DNA of 64,000 nucleotides from Chloroflexota bacterium. GTDB lineage: Bacteria > Chloroflexota > Dormibacteria > Aeolococcales > Aeolococcaceae. The position numbers and the translations under genes are program-made. The notes under the pieces are model-generated. The model was not told the DNA's origin and made no database searches. It was given only the letters and a program-made list of their open reading frames with translations. Location of the stretch: NCBI GenBank assembly GCA_005880985.1, contig VBIQ01000007.1, forward strand, positions 1-64,000, given 5' to 3'. Below are positions 43,529 to 50,323 of this stretch, one piece after another. Position 1 is the stretch's first letter; every line of letters begins with the position of its first letter.

Positions 43529-43532
<4 letters not shown>
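42255..43532 (+). CDS. hisS: Histidyl-tRNA synthetase
   Basis: HisRS charges tRNA-His. The 425-residue class II enzyme has APRGTNDLLP at the start, EKQMYTFTDRGGRSLTLRPEGTAG with motif 2 RSERPQKGRYHQFQQVGIEC, the histidine motif LVRGLDYYAHTAFEY, and motif 3 ALGGGGRYDGLAEVLG then GYALGVERLLL. The C-terminal anticodon domain includes LDRKLRAADRLGASAAVIVG. It overlaps aspS by GTGA. Confidence 0.96.
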
Positions 43533-45307
<1,775 letters not shown>

Positions 45308-45310
45308 CGA

Positions 45311-45365
45311 CCGCGCGGCAAAGCACCGAAGCGCGGGGACAGGCCGCGCCGTCAAGACCGTCCCC
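45311..45365 (+). terminator. Two hairpins after aspS
   Basis: CCGCGC (45311-45316) can pair with GCGCGG (45331-45336), or GGGGAC (45335-45340) with GTCCCC (45360-45365). These mutually exclusive stems directly follow the aspS stop and probably mark the end of the hisS-aspS transcript. Confidence 0.35.
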
Positions 45366-45422
45366 AATGTTTGCTTGCACTGTGACAGACGTCGCTTCGC
45401 GCGCCGATGCGAGTTGCGGGAG

Positions 45423-45589
45423 CGGCGCGAAGAAATTGGTTGCGGTCGTCGGTGCGTGAAGCAGGCTCCGGCGCGGTACCATCATCGGGTCCCTTGCCGG
45501 TGGCAGCCGAGAATGCGGCTGGACCAACACCTTTGACTTAGGGGTTCCTACATCCGGCATCTGCCTTCATGCCTCGCGGCCTCGCGCCG
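45423..45589 (+). ncRNA. Candidate structured RNA downstream of aspS (6S-like shape)
   Basis: A 167-base segment folds back on itself. CGGCGCGA (45423-45430) pairs with TCGCGCCG (45582-45589), GCGTGAAG (45454-45461) with CTTCATGC (45565-45572), CCGG (45468-45471) with CCGG (45554-45557) and GTA with TAC (45549-45551). Large unpaired bulges lie between these stems. The long interrupted rod of about 170-180 bases recalls 6S RNA, and in Bacillus subtilis a 6S RNA gene is adjacent to aspS. I do not see clear 6S sequence consensus or a strong promoter, so this is a hypothesis. Confidence 0.3.
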
Positions 45590-45625
45590 GTGGACGGAGA
45601 ACGGTGACGTGCGGATCCCCACCTG

Positions 45626-45663
45626 GTCCTGGGGCTCAGCCCAGGACGGCTGTGCCGGCACAG
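45626..45663 (+). terminator. Two strong hairpins before the small membrane gene
   Basis: GTCCTGGG pairs with CCCAGGAC around a GCTCAG loop (45626-45647), followed by the perfect palindrome CTGTGCCGGCACAG (45650-45663). They could end the upstream candidate RNA or form a leader structure for the gene at 45707. Confidence 0.35.
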
Positions 45664-45706
45664 GGACTGTTATCCGTCGGCGCGCGTAGTCGAGAACGTC
45701 CTGCTC

Positions 45707-45970
45707 ATGCGCCCCAGCCCTGGCCTCGTCATGGCGGTCCTGCTGGTGCTCCTGGCTGCGCAGCTGACGCGCCTGGTGGTGCCGGGTCGCGGCCCCTACC
45801 TCTGGACGCTGCTGCTCGCCGCCGCGGGTGTTGCGGCGGGAGAGATCCTCGCTGGTTCGGGGCACTTCGCAAGCCCGGTCGTGGGCGTCATCCATCCGGT
45901 CCCCGACGCGGCCGCCACCGCCCTGCTGGAAGCGGGAGGGGCGCTGCTGCTCTCTCCGCGGCGGACCTGA
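45707..45970 (+). CDS. Small hypothetical membrane protein
   Basis: This 87-residue frame encodes two hydrophobic segments, roughly residues 7-24 (VMAVLLVLLAAQLTRLVV) and 31-47 (YLWTLLLAAAGVAAGEI). A small Gly/His/Pro loop (GSGHFASPVVGVIHPVP) and a third weak hydrophobic stretch follow. I do not recognise a family. There is no strong ribosome site. It precedes the small-protein/anti-sigma/sigma operon and may belong with it. Confidence 0.5.
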   Translation: MRPSPGLVMAVLLVLLAAQLTRLVVPGRGPYLWTLLLAAAGVAAGEILAGSGHFASPVVGVIHPVPDAAATALLEAGGALLLSPRRT

Positions 45971-46033
45971 CCAGGCCTCCTTTGACGCGCTGTGGCAAGG
46001 CGGTGATGGAGGGGGGTGGCAGCACCTCGCCCC

Positions 46034-46039
46034 TATACT
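46034..46039 (+). promoter_or_regulatory. -10-like box TATACT of the sigma-factor operon
   Basis: TATACT lies 35 bases before ATG 46075, leaving a short leader with AGAGGG at 46063-46068. It would drive the three-gene chain ending in the sigma factor. Confidence 0.45.
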
Positions 46040-46074
46040 GCTGCGGTCGCGTGCGCCAAACGAGAGGGATCCTG

Positions 46075-46290
46075 ATGATGAGCCGTCGCCTTGTTGCTGC
46101 CGCCGTCGGGGGCGGCGCGATCGCGGCCGCGGCCGCGGCCGCGGTTGTAGGCTGCCTGACCCTCCGGCGCCGGATCGGCAGCCGGGAGGAGGAGCCGTCC
46201 CTCCCGACCCATATCGTTCTTCCCGACCGGCTCGCCTCTGGGCCGAACGGGTCCGCGGTCGAGGAGGGTGTGGCGGCGGCCTCGGCGTGA
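46075..46290 (+). CDS. Small membrane-anchored protein, first gene of a sigma operon
   Basis: This 71-residue protein starts MMSRRLVAAAVGGGAIAAAA, a strongly hydrophobic Ala-rich segment ending VVGC, then TLRRR and a polar, Pro/Ser-containing tail. It may be a single-pass anchor; VVGC also fits a lipobox, though the following arginines argue for a cytosolic tail. The hydrophobic run is encoded by GCGGCC repeats. A ribosome site (AGAGGG) and promoter support it as real. Its stop overlaps the next start (GTGA), suggesting coupled expression with the anti-sigma and sigma genes. Confidence 0.6.
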   Translation: MMSRRLVAAAVGGGAIAAAAAAAVVGCLTLRRRIGSREEEPSLPTHIVLPDRLASGPNGSAVEEGVAAASA

Positions 46291-46796
46291 TCCCGCGGGG
46301 TTTCGAGACGGCAGTCTCCGGGTACCAAACCCGTGAGATGTCGCCCGCGACCTCCGAGCTCCGCATCCCCGCCGACGCCGCCTACATCGTGGTGGCGAAG
46401 CGGGCGGCGGCCGGGTTTGCCGCGGTGGCCGGCTTCGGGCTCGAGGCCATCGACGACCTGACCATCGCGGTGGCCCAGGCCTGCGAGAACGCCATCAGCC
46501 TGGTGCAGCGCGCCGGCGCCACCGGCCAGGTCAGACTCGCGTTCAAGCTCGAGGGCCAGCGCCTGGAGATCCAGGTGCGGAGCGTCTGCGGACGCAACGA
46601 GGAGCCGTGCGCTCCCGATCAGCAGGTCGCCGTCGCGCCTGCTGCCGCGCCGCGGTCGGCCCCCGAGACCCAACCGGTGGCCGCGACCGACCTCGCGCTG
46701 CGCATGATGGGCCTGTTCGTCGACGACTTCCGCTATCGCGTCGACGAGCGGACCGGCGGCCTGCGCGTCCGCCTGACGAAGTACCGCATTTCGTGA
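46287..46796 (+). CDS. RsbW-like anti-sigma factor with degenerate ATP-binding motifs
   Basis: The core of this 169-residue protein is a serine-kinase-type (GHKL) anti-sigma domain: SELRIPADAAYIVVAKRAAAGFA and the N-box LTIAVAQACENAISLV. The usual G1 box (DxGxGF) is missing, replaced by VRSVCGRNEEP, and the G2 region reads TDLALRMMGLFVDDF without the GLGL glycines. It may therefore bind its sigma without normal kinase activity. GTG 46287 overlaps the preceding stop. ATG 46338 is an alternative giving 152 residues that start closer to the conserved domain. It overlaps the sigma gene by GTGA. Confidence 0.75.
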   Translation: MIPRGFETAVSGYQTREMSPATSELRIPADAAYIVVAKRAAAGFAAVAGFGLEAIDDLTIAVAQACENAISLVQRAGATGQVRLAFKLEGQRLEIQVRSVCGRNEEPCAPDQQVAVAPAAAPRSAPETQPVAATDLALRMMGLFVDDFRYRVDERTGGLRVRLTKYRIS

Positions 46797-47659
46797 CCTC
46801 GGGCCCGGGGGGCGGCTCGGGTTCTGAGGCCGGTGGGGGCACCGGGACGGCGCGGCGCCGGCGACCGGCTCCGCCCCGGGTGCGGACCATTGCCAAGCCG
46901 GCTACCGACGGCCAGCGGGAAGAGGTTCGCCGGCTTCTCCGCGAGTACGCCGCCGACCGCGATCCGGCGGTGCGCGACCGGCTGGTGGAGCTGAACTCCG
47001 ATCTCGTCCACTACATCGCCCGCCGCTTTGCCAACCGCGGCGAGCCGCTCGAAGACATCGAGCAGGTCGGCTTCCTCGGGCTGATCAACGCGATCGAGCG
47101 TTTCGATCCGGGGCTGGAGAACGAGTTCAGCACCTTCGCCACCCCGACCATCATGGGCGAGATCCGCCGGTACTTCCGGGACCGCTCCTGGGCCATCCGG
47201 GTGCCGCGCCGCCTGCAGGAGAACTATCTGAGAGTGGTGCGCGCCGAGGAGCAGCTGCGCGGCGAGCTCGGCCGGCAGCCCTCGGTCAGCGAGATCGGCG
47301 AGCGCCTCGGTCTCGCCCCCGACGAGGTGCTGGCCGCCCTCGAGGTCTCGCCTGCCCAGCACACCGTGTCGCTGGAGGCGCCCTCGTCGACCGCGGTCGA
47401 CGAGGGATCGGAGCTCGGCGAGCGGCTGGGGCGTGAGGACGAGAACCTCGAGCGGGTGGAGACGGCGGCGCTGCTGGAGCAGGCGATGGCCCACCTCACC
47501 CCCCGCGAGCGCCAGATCATGGTGCTGCGCTTCTTCGACCAGCTGCCGCAGACCGAGGTCGCCAAGCGGCTGGGCATCTCCCAGATGCACGTCTCCCGGC
47601 TGCAGCGGGCCGCCCTGGAGCACATGCGCCGCGAGTTCCCCGAGCCCCCACCGGTCTGA
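46793..47659 (+). CDS. RNA polymerase sigma factor, SigB/SigF type (group 3)
   Basis: The protein has 288 residues with a Gly/Arg-rich N terminus. Region 2 is LVHYIARRFANRGEPLEDIEQ through FSTFATPTIMGEIRRYFRD. It is followed by WAIRVPRRLQENYLRV, region 3 (GRQPSVSEIGERLGLAPDEV), and region 4 with helix-turn-helix LTPRERQIMVLRFFDQLPQ and EVAKRLGISQMHVSRLQ. The subtype is the stress/sporulation SigB/SigF group, which agrees with the RsbW-like gene directly upstream. The usual RsbV antagonist is not next to it. GTG 46793 overlaps the upstream stop. Confidence 0.92.
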   Translation: MTSGPGGGSGSEAGGGTGTARRRRPAPPRVRTIAKPATDGQREEVRRLLREYAADRDPAVRDRLVELNSDLVHYIARRFANRGEPLEDIEQVGFLGLINAIERFDPGLENEFSTFATPTIMGEIRRYFRDRSWAIRVPRRLQENYLRVVRAEEQLRGELGRQPSVSEIGERLGLAPDEVLAALEVSPAQHTVSLEAPSSTAVDEGSELGERLGREDENLERVETAALLEQAMAHLTPRERQIMVLRFFDQLPQTEVAKRLGISQMHVSRLQRAALEHMRREFPEPPPV

Positions 47660-47770: not shown

Positions 47771-50323
47771 TTGCGTAGCCCAGAGATCCGGGAACGCTTT
47801 CTCAACTTCTTCGAACGCCGGGGGCACCACCGACTGCCGAGCGCGTCGCTTGTGGCCTACGACGACCCCACGGTGCTCTTCACCGTGGCTGGCATGGTGC
47901 CTCTCCAGCCGTTCTTTCGCGGTACCAGCACGCCTCCGGCGCCGCGGGTGACGACCTGCCAGAAGTGCCTTCGCACCGCCGACCTCGAGTCGGTGGGCGA
48001 TGGCAGCCACCACACCTTCTTCGAGATGCTCGGCAACTTCTCGTTCGGCGACTACTTCAAGGAAGGGGCGATCACCCTGGCGATGGAGCTGCTCACCGCC
48101 GACTTCGAGCTGGCCGGCGACCGGCTCTGGCCCAGCATCCACCCCGACGACGCGGAGGCGCTCGATATCTGGACCCGGGTGGTCGGGGTGCCCCGGGAGA
48201 AGGTGTCGATGCTGGAGGACAACTTCTGGGGCCCGGCCGGTCCGTCGGGTCCGTGCGGCTTCGACAGCGAGATCTACTGGGATTGGGGCGCGCCCTGTTC
48301 CTGCGGCCGCGGCGACTGCCGGCCTGACACCGAATGCGGCGGCGACCGTTGGACAGAGGTGTGGAACCTGGTCTTCCCCGAGTTCGAGCAGGACGAGGGT
48401 GGCCGGCGGACGCCCCTTCCCGAGAAGGGCATCGACACCGGCATGGGGCTGGAGCGTATGGCCGCGGTGATGCAGGGGGTGCGCAGCAACTACCAGACCG
48501 ACCTCTTCCTGCCGATCGTCGCCGGCTTCGAGAGCCGCAGCTCGGCGGCGGTCGACGCCGCCACCCGCAGCCGGGCGCTCAACGTCCTCGCCGATCACGC
48601 CCGCTGCAGCAGCTTGCTGATCGCCGACGGCGTCCTCCCCGGCAACGAGTCGCGTGGCTACGTGCTGCGGCGGATCATCCGCCGGGCGGCGGTCCACGGC
48701 CGCCGCATCGGCCTGCGGGGCGGGCTCTCCGCCGGCGTGGCCGACGTGGTCGCGGTGATGGGCGACGCCTACCCCGAGCTGGTCCAGCATCGCACCCTCA
48801 TCGAGACCACGGTGCGCGACGAGGAGGAGGCATTCGCGCGCACCCTGTCGGAGGGATCGGAGCGGCTCGAGCAGCTGCTGGAGCGCAGCGGTGCCCGGCT
48901 GAGCGGCGACGACGCCTTCCGGCTGCACGACACCTTCGGCTTTCCCATCGAGCTGACCGTCGAGCTGGCGGCCGAGCGCGGTGTCGAGGTGGACATCGAC
49001 GGCTACCGCGCCGCCATGGCGGCGCAGCGTGCCCGCAGCCGCCCCGCCGCGAGAGGGGCGGGCTTCGCCCAGGTGCCGCAGCTTGCGCCCACCACCTTCG
49101 TCGGATACGACGCGCTGGAGACGGACGCGGAGGTGCGCTGGGTAGGCGCCGGCCCGCTGCAGGTGGTGATCGAACCCTCGCCGTTCTATGCCGAGGCGGG
49201 CGGCCAGGTCGGCGACCGCGGCACCCTCGAATGGGACGGCGGCAGTGCGACCGTGGTCGACTCGCAGTTCTTCCCGGGCACCGAGATCCGCGGGGTGGCG
49301 CTCGCCGCCCCCGCGCCTGCGCTTGCGGTGGGCGTCAGGGTGCGGGCTCGGGTCGACCCCAGCTGGCGGTGGCGCGCCGCACGCCATCACAGCGCCACCC
49401 ATCTGCTGCACCGGGCTCTTCGCGAGGTGCTCGGCGACAGCGTCGTGCAGCGAGGCTCGCTGGTGCGGCCCGACTACACCACCTTCGACTTCAGCTTCCC
49501 CCGCGCCCTCACCGGCGATGAGGTGCGGGCGGTGCAGCACCGCGTCAACGAGGCGATTCGCGACGACCTGCAACGGAGTGTCGACCTCCTACCCATCGCC
49601 GCCGCGCGACAGTCCGGCGCCGTCGCCCTCTTCGGCGAGAAGTACGGCGAGACAGTGCGCGTCGTCGATTTCGGCGGCTGGGCGCGCGAGCTCTGTGGCG
49701 GGACCCACGTCGAGCGCACCGGCAACATCGGCGCCGCCATCGTGGTGTCGGAGTCGAGCATCGGCCAGGGCATCCGGCGCATCGAGATGGTCGCCGGAGA
49801 GGCGGCCGAGAAGCAGTGGACCGAGAACGCGGCGGAGCTCAGCGCGGCGGCGCGAGCGCTGCGTGCCCGGCCCGAGGAGGTGGGCGAGCGCGTCGCCGCC
49901 CTGCAGCTGCAGGTCAAGCGGCTGCAGCGCGAGCTGGAGGAGGCCCGCCGCCGCGGCGCCGGTGGTGGCGGCGGTGCGGCCGCGGCGGTCGAGGAGATCG
50001 CCGGCATCCCGCTCGCCTATCTGCTGCTCGACCAGCCCGGGCGCGACGCCGTGCAGGGCGCCACCGACACCGTCTACGCGGAGCAGCTGCAGGGCAACGG
50101 AGTGGTGATCGTCCTCGGGCTCGACGCCGTCGCCGTCAAGGCCGGCGGGGTGGCCACCGCCGGCGGGGTCGACGCCGGGGCGCTGGCACGTGCCGCCGCC
50201 GAGGTCACCGGCGGCCACGGCGGCGGGCGGTCCGACTTCGCCAGCGGCGGCGTCAAGGATCCCTCGCGGCGCGAGGCCGCCGTCGACGCGGTGCGGCGGG
50301 CGCTGCGGGAGCGGGCGGCATGA
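47771..50323 (+). CDS. alaS: Alanyl-tRNA synthetase
   Basis: AlaRS charges tRNA-Ala and edits mischarged Ser and Gly. The 850-residue protein has the catalytic domain (SPEIRERFLNFFERRGH, MVPLQPFF, CQKCLRTADLESVG, FFEMLGNFSFGDYFK, KGIDTGMGLERMAAVMQG). The editing domain has HHSATHLLHRALRE near residue 537 and CGGTHVERTGNIG near 641, and the C-terminal domain ends GGGRSDFASGGVKD. It uses TTG 47771, which gives the family N terminus; no ATG or GTG in frame fits. Confidence 0.96.
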   Translation: MRSPEIRERFLNFFERRGHHRLPSASLVAYDDPTVLFTVAGMVPLQPFFRGTSTPPAPRVTTCQKCLRTADLESVGDGSHHTFFEMLGNFSFGDYFKEGAITLAMELLTADFELAGDRLWPSIHPDDAEALDIWTRVVGVPREKVSMLEDNFWGPAGPSGPCGFDSEIYWDWGAPCSCGRGDCRPDTECGGDRWTEVWNLVFPEFEQDEGGRRTPLPEKGIDTGMGLERMAAVMQGVRSNYQTDLFLPIVAGFESRSSAAVDAATRSRALNVLADHARCSSLLIADGVLPGNESRGYVLRRIIRRAAVHGRRIGLRGGLSAGVADVVAVMGDAYPELVQHRTLIETTVRDEEEAFARTLSEGSERLEQLLERSGARLSGDDAFRLHDTFGFPIELTVELAAERGVEVDIDGYRAAMAAQRARSRPAARGAGFAQVPQLAPTTFVGYDALETDAEVRWVGAGPLQVVIEPSPFYAEAGGQVGDRGTLEWDGGSATVVDSQFFPGTEIRGVALAAPAPALAVGVRVRARVDPSWRWRAARHHSATHLLHRALREVLGDSVVQRGSLVRPDYTTFDFSFPRALTGDEVRAVQHRVNEAIRDDLQRSVDLLPIAAARQSGAVALFGEKYGETVRVVDFGGWARELCGGTHVERTGNIGAAIVVSESSIGQGIRRIEMVAGEAAEKQWTENAAELSAAARALRARPEEVGERVAALQLQVKRLQRELEEARRRGAGGGGGAAAAVEEIAGIPLAYLLLDQPGRDAVQGATDTVYAEQLQGNGVVIVLGLDAVAVKAGGVATAGGVDAGALARAAAEVTGGHGGGRSDFASGGVKDPSRREAAVDAVRRALRERAA

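Follow-up and report, generated by a model that had tools for sequence, protein, structure and literature searches.

A probably autoregulated SigB-type module of Candidatus Dormibacteria with a lineage-specific membrane-protein gene upstream of its promoter

Organization of the cluster

The window, the whole 64,000-nucleotide stretch of Dormibacteria DNA that was analyzed, contains a forward-strand gene cluster bordered upstream by aspS (43529–45307) and downstream by alaS (47771–50323), both assigned from Pfam matches and synteny. Between these borders lie tm87 (45707–45970), encoding an 87-residue protein with hydrophobic stretches, a gene for a predicted 71-residue single-pass membrane protein (46075–46290, with ATG 46078, one codon on, as a possible alternative start), an RsbW-like anti-sigma gene (46338–46796, 152 residues from ATG 46338) and a sigma factor gene (46793–47659). 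The sigma factor is of the SigB/SigF/SigG type, with a score of 274.6 bits against TIGR02980 (cut-off 234.35).

The cluster was compared across 61 genomes of Dormibacteria, comprising the window's own family (f1, in which the window locus is L001) and three sister families (f2, f3, and f4). The anti-sigma gene is present in 57 of the 61 genomes, counting that of the window, and was not found in four, two of which are f1 genomes (G001 and G003). Within the sequence retrieved for each locus, the f1 order is aspS, tm87, small gene, rsbW-like gene, sigma gene, alaS, with no match to tm87 in one f1 locus (L028). The tm87 product is 42–68% identical in 28 f1 loci (L001–L027 and L064, by tblastn), also matches a locus of f3 (L059), and has no Pfam or NCBIfam match; it is better conserved than the product of the small gene.

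The stop codon of the anti-sigma gene and the start codon of the sigma gene share the GTGA at 46793–46796. With L071 counted in f1, 24 of 30 f1 loci and 15 of 27 others have an NTGA overlap that leads into a long sigma frame. By this comparison the anti-sigma/sigma overlap is conserved, and the GTGA link between these two genes in the initial annotation stands.

The small gene and its product

The small gene lies in ∼70% GC DNA, where an ORF listing gave 62 frames of at least 40 residues overlapping the surrounding 8 kb. This wealth of long chance frames, together with the low pairwise identity of the window protein to the other copies (20–39%), would fit a frame that is open by chance. Length alone was given little weight, and the ORF is counted as a gene because it is conserved. 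The interval from tm87 (or aspS) to the anti-sigma gene, here called the slot, contains a small hydrophobic frame in all 30 f1 loci that include it (L001–L028, L064, and L217), the frames having been chosen by place and hydrophobicity and afterwards by prefix. The individual copies include one that lacks an ATG, GTG, or TTG start (L004), two with a GTG start (L007 and L008), one with unread bases (L064), and, in the thirtieth slot on a second piece of genome G013, a 50-residue copy whose neighboring promoter is one base off. A Shine-Dalgarno sequence of at least 4 bases precedes 25 of the 26 f1 copies checked; in the window it is GAGG at 46064–46067, 7 nt 5′ of the ATG.

Substitutions in the small gene follow a coding pattern. 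Differences at codon positions 1, 2, and 3 number 119, 28, and 561 among seven loci of genus g6, and pN/pS is 0.10 in g6, 0.32 in g12 (seven loci), and 0.54 in g11 (three loci), rising to 0.71 when the window, whose genus is represented by a single genome in the sample, is set with the three g11 loci. The corresponding values for the anti-sigma gene are 0.05, 0.14, 0.24, and 0.39. The window copy shares the motif PTHIVLPD with g11 and an A-x-x-E/D-G tail with most other f1 copies; in a ten-row alignment Ala61 is invariant and Gly65 nearly so, and the conserved tail sits behind a basic juxtamembrane stretch. Given the third-position bias, the shared motifs, and the regular presence of a ribosome site, a chance origin of the frame is extremely improbable, and the comparative evidence is that 46075–46290 is a genuine gene. 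The frame with its Ala-rich hydrophobic segment and its own ribosome site are as initially described, and the checks proposed at that time, on gene order, conservation of the small protein, and coding signature in relatives, came out in its favor.

The 71-residue protein is probably membrane-bound, with a single predicted membrane pass. The AlphaFold model consists of a helix at residues 4–38 (best scored at 11–30), a linker, and a short helix at 59–70, and with a mean pLDDT of 69 weight is given to the first helix only. Judged by the searches made, the protein has so far been found in this lineage only. The Pfam family HCV_NS4a came up with an E value of 0.01 and 16 bits against a cut-off of 27, which was taken as chance, and no match to DUF948 or YtxH was obtained in Pfam at E values up to 1. 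Most matches from a search of the 61 genomes with the 71-residue protein alone were Ala-rich and due to chance; those of use adjoined the anti-sigma gene in g11 (G016, G021, and G010), and comparison by slot was therefore used instead.

The small gene had also been credited with a promoter of its own, which did not find support: a sigma-70 consensus scan of 45300–46850 yielded no promoter for the small gene or tm87, and no terminator was found around the small gene. Because tm87 ends only 31–102 nt 5′ of the small gene in relatives, the two genes are at least as likely to share a transcript as the small gene is to have a separate promoter.

A SigB-type promoter and the start of the anti-sigma gene

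The region between the small gene and the anti-sigma gene contains the sequence GTTTCG-N14-GGGTAC (46300–46325), with a −35 element at 46300–46305 and a −10 element at 46320–46325 of SigB type. The form GTTT-N16-GGGTAY (N15 in L010) is found in all of L001–L027, ending 9–12 nt 5′ of the start codon of the anti-sigma gene; over these 27 loci GTTT and GGGTA do not vary, in contrast to the spacer. GTTT is present in all 30 f1 loci and GGGTAY in 27, the remaining three (L028, L064, and L217) being one base off. Shuffled regions gave an expectation of 0.02 matches in 27, compared with the 27 of 27 observed, and loci L001–L027, 90,582 bases in total, contain no second match on the same strand. The PB-type form, GTTT-N15 to N17-GGGTAT directly 5′ of the switch genes, is thus matched in f1 by the GTTT and GGGTAY elements.

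Among the 57 loci scanned, the exact promoter is present in 28, namely L001–L027 and one locus of f2 (L030). The 15 f2 loci score 10 of 10 in one case, 9 in eight, and 8 in six. No comparable promoter was found 5′ of rsbW in f3 or f4, and no exact SigB-type promoter was found in f3. In f4 an exact promoter lies 7 nt 5′ of a DUF948 gene in three of the four loci with the whole gene (L073, L075, and L076, not L074), and this gene heads a series of DUF948, a Gly-rich transmembrane (TM) protein, rsbW, and sigma. For comparison, SigB sites of Bacillus are given as GTTTAA-N12 to N17-GGGTAT, and those of Streptomyces include GTTTGC-N14-GGGTAC (PMC9847131, PMC8346170). The Streptomyces sites as tabulated extend 3–11 bases past the −10 element (PMC9847131, PMC8346170); if the printed ends are taken as transcript starts, by analogy the message of the window would carry few or no leader bases.

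The promoter bears directly on where the anti-sigma gene begins. The initial annotation had linked this gene to the small gene by a GTGA overlap and regarded the two as translationally coupled, which would place the anti-sigma start at GTG 46287. The GTGA is indeed present at 46287–46290 and the frame downstream of it is open in the window. Among 26 loci compared, an in-frame start overlapping the stop of the small gene occurs in two only (L021 and the window itself), however, and in eight the anti-sigma frame is closed before reaching that stop; L007 carries an in-frame TGA between the small-gene stop and the anti-sigma start. The distance from the −10 element to the ATG is 11 nt rather than 12 in L006, and the spacer is 15 nt in L010, neither of which is compatible with a conserved reading frame, arguing against GTG 46287. 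The 17 additional codons that such a start would add coincide with the invariant promoter, and the peptide-like "GF...GY" pattern in their translation is the promoter read as codons. A Shine-Dalgarno sequence precedes rsbW in only two of 26 loci but the small gene in 25 of 26. Consequently, a start at GTG 46287 is very unlikely; the anti-sigma gene most likely starts at ATG 46338, almost without a leader, and the overlap at 46287–46290 is most likely due to chance. The four letters of the proposed link are therefore real and the coupling is not supported, since a SigB-type promoter and a near-leaderless start intervene, and the gene model is corrected from 46287 to 46338.

Taken together, these data suggest, with a probability of roughly 0.8, that the cluster represents a SigB-type stress module of Candidatus Dormibacteria under autoregulatory control, with a lineage-specific 71-residue membrane-protein gene upstream of its promoter. 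The rsbW-like and sigma genes would form one transcript from the promoter at 46300–46325, the message beginning a few bases 5′ of ATG 46338, so that the anti-sigma factor would be translated from an mRNA with almost no leader, and the sigma gene next by way of the GTGA overlap at its start. Active sigma factor would then yield more sigma factor and more of the inhibitor that presumably binds it, as at PB of the Bacillus subtilis sigB operon. The small gene, upstream of the SigB promoter, would be translated from its own ribosome site on a transcript that probably begins at or before tm87, and this transcript may run on to provide basal anti-sigma and sigma factor, as PA does in Bacillus.

The B. 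subtilis operon is described as PA-rsbR-rsbS-rsbT-rsbU-PB-rsbV-rsbW-sigB-rsbX, with a SigB promoter 5′ of rsbV-rsbW-sigB (PMC7522486). As far as the accounts of that operon go (PMC7522486, PMC9847131), the window cluster shares with it a SigB-type promoter directly 5′ of the switch genes, the position of rsbW 5′ of sigB, and the logic of autoregulation. It differs in having no rsbV, rsbX, or stressosome genes, in an anti-sigma factor that lacks the kinase motifs, in the membrane-protein genes upstream, and in a start codon that lies almost at the expected start of the transcript. Regulation has been little studied in this phylum, for which the analysis now supplies the sequence of a SigB-type promoter; a literature search with Dormibacter* and "sigma factor", a term that does not cover the spelling Dormiibacterota, retrieved no paper.

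Beyond the cluster, the promoter pattern has seven sites in the window's genome and none for a backwards control. Over the 32 f1 genomes it is hardly enriched, with 170 sites against 142 for the control, or 145 against 93 without G013, G018, and G007, which were set aside after their high controls had been seen. Only the place and conservation of the promoter therefore carry weight, and a regulon prediction from the pattern was dropped as evidence. One pattern site that recurs in several genomes, GTTTAGGGCGTGGACTACCGGGGTAT, resembles 16S rRNA antisense by eye. As side observations, a SigB-type site lies 55 nt 5′ of a Lon protease-like gene in the window's genome (L085; G000 contig C26, 179407–179431; by eye), and others lie 182 nt (L083) and, in a relative, 122 nt (L154) 5′ of an rpoB-like gene. 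Members of one genus share such sites at equivalent positions (L150–L152 in g6; L139–L143 and L144–L149 in g12); judged by eye, the g6 site is 5′ of a cold-shock-like gene and those of g12 are 5′ of an unknown gene and of one for an FmdB-like zinc-ribbon protein.

The anti-sigma factor and the upstream membrane proteins

The anti-sigma protein matches HATPase_c_2 with 45.3 bits (cut-off 27.4, the longer frame being used) and B. subtilis RsbW (6m36) with an E value of 2e-19 with a profile and 1.9e-9 alone. Against the NCBIfam RsbW model it scores 54.2 bits, below the cut-off of 145. When 55 loci were aligned to RsbW, leaving out L071 (incomplete) and L077 (a doubtful paralogue), the N-box Glu and Asn pair was present in none, the G1 DxG in none, and the G2 GxG in one (L060), which itself lacks the N-box pair and G1. 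In RsbW, Glu49 contacts the RsbV serine that RsbW phosphorylates (PMC7340262); the anti-sigma factor has Gln at this position. On the basis of these alignments the protein is classed as RsbW-like, outside the RsbW kinase membership, with the kinase motifs lost in 55 of 55 loci, and RsbW homologues of this kind occur in all four sampled families of the class.

A close parallel is Mycobacterium smegmatis, where RsbW1 is described as a kinase-inactive RsbW homologue that acts as an anti-sigma factor paired with SigF, a separate RsbW2 being the kinase (PMC7693655). The window cluster resembles rsbW1-sigF in pairing an RsbW homologue, here predicted to be without kinase activity from its lost motifs, with a sigma factor of the SigB/F type. 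The two differ in that the M. smegmatis account includes the second RsbW as the kinase and RsfA and RsfB as antagonists (PMC7693655), whereas in the window cluster no linked partner was found and membrane proteins are encoded upstream. No RsbV-like gene is linked to the SigB locus, and the window's genome (93% complete) has no match to PF01740. It has one match to PF13466, a lone 96-residue STAS_2 protein (L093, contig C2:402158–402394) that lies away from the SigB module, one to PF07228 (SpoIIE) at 30.8 bits, just over the cut-off of 25, and 17 to PF13581, of which the two inspected are the window's own anti-sigma factor and a frame that is histidine-kinase-like by eye (L202). With these STAS_2, SpoIIE-type, and PF13581 matches elsewhere in the genome, an unlinked kinase or antagonist may exist.

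The loss of the kinase motifs raises the question of how SigB is released, for which a small set of membrane proteins can be named as candidates. The slot of the small gene is occupied differently in the sister families. The layout is tm87-like, DUF948-like, rsbW, sigma in f3 and tm87-like, DUF948, Gly-rich TM protein, rsbW, sigma in f4, the tm87-like ORFs of both having been assigned by inspection; the f4 protein scores 38.8 bits against Pfam DUF948, over the cut-off of 37.2, and the f3 protein 28.8 bits (E 1.4e-6), below it. In f2 the layout is aspS, rsbW, sigma, with no match to tm87 and no small membrane ORF passing the filter in the 14 of 15 loci where the slot is complete, L061 being cut. 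The f4 Gly-rich TM protein was considered as a YtxH, with the window protein as its reduced form, and this was rejected as there is no Pfam YtxH match; the hhalign probability between the two proteins is 9.7%. YtxH proteins carry an AI-x-D/E-G pattern, and its occurrence in both proteins is kept as a resemblance only.

The 71-residue protein occupies the slot that DUF948-type membrane proteins fill in sister families. DUF948 proteins (YtxG/FacZ) and YtxH of Firmicutes are, like it, small single-TM proteins and are tied to SigB in B. subtilis, where ytxG, ytxH, and ytxJ are listed in a core SigB set (PMC7824861); YtxG is also known as FacZ, a DUF948 protein involved in cell division (PMC10914604). 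This likeness argues for a stress-response effector, an envelope protein broadly like DUF948 and YtxH proteins, encoded at the same locus and making no contact with the anti-sigma factor. The window protein, however, is shorter and matches neither profile, the hhalign value to the f4 protein is low, and the f1 small gene lies upstream of the SigB promoter and not under it, leaving such an effector about evenly balanced between likely and unlikely.

Alternatively, and in line with the envelope sensing or tethering suggested in the initial annotation, the small protein could sit in the membrane as an anchor or sensor, retaining or freeing the kinase-dead anti-sigma factor and replacing the phosphorylation-driven RsbV input. 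The filled slot in every f1 locus that includes it, the kinase motifs missing from all 55 anti-sigma proteins, the lack of a PF01740 match or a linked RsbV-like gene, with the sole PF13466 protein away from the locus, the conserved tail behind the basic stretch, and the DUF948 proteins of the sister families are all consistent with this role. Nevertheless, 14 f2 loci keep rsbW-sigma without a small protein in the slot, the sequence of the small protein drifts fast, and the unlinked STAS_2 protein and SpoIIE-type match leave room for an ordinary antagonist pathway, so that a direct regulator appears unlikely. Still more doubtful is the broader proposal that the Dormibacteria SigB switch no longer uses phosphorylation-based partner switching, its kinase-dead RsbW homologue being gated directly from the envelope by small membrane proteins encoded immediately upstream, namely the 71-residue protein and tm87 in the window and DUF948 proteins in the sister families. 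Within the autoregulated module preferred here, the likeliest role of the 71-residue protein would be that of an accessory envelope or stress protein beside, and perhaps feeding into, the SigB switch.

Separately, in f3 (L052, L056, L057, L059, L060, and L062) the interval from aspS to the tm87-like gene encodes a conserved protein of 257–286 residues with a signal-like N terminus, present in one or two copies.
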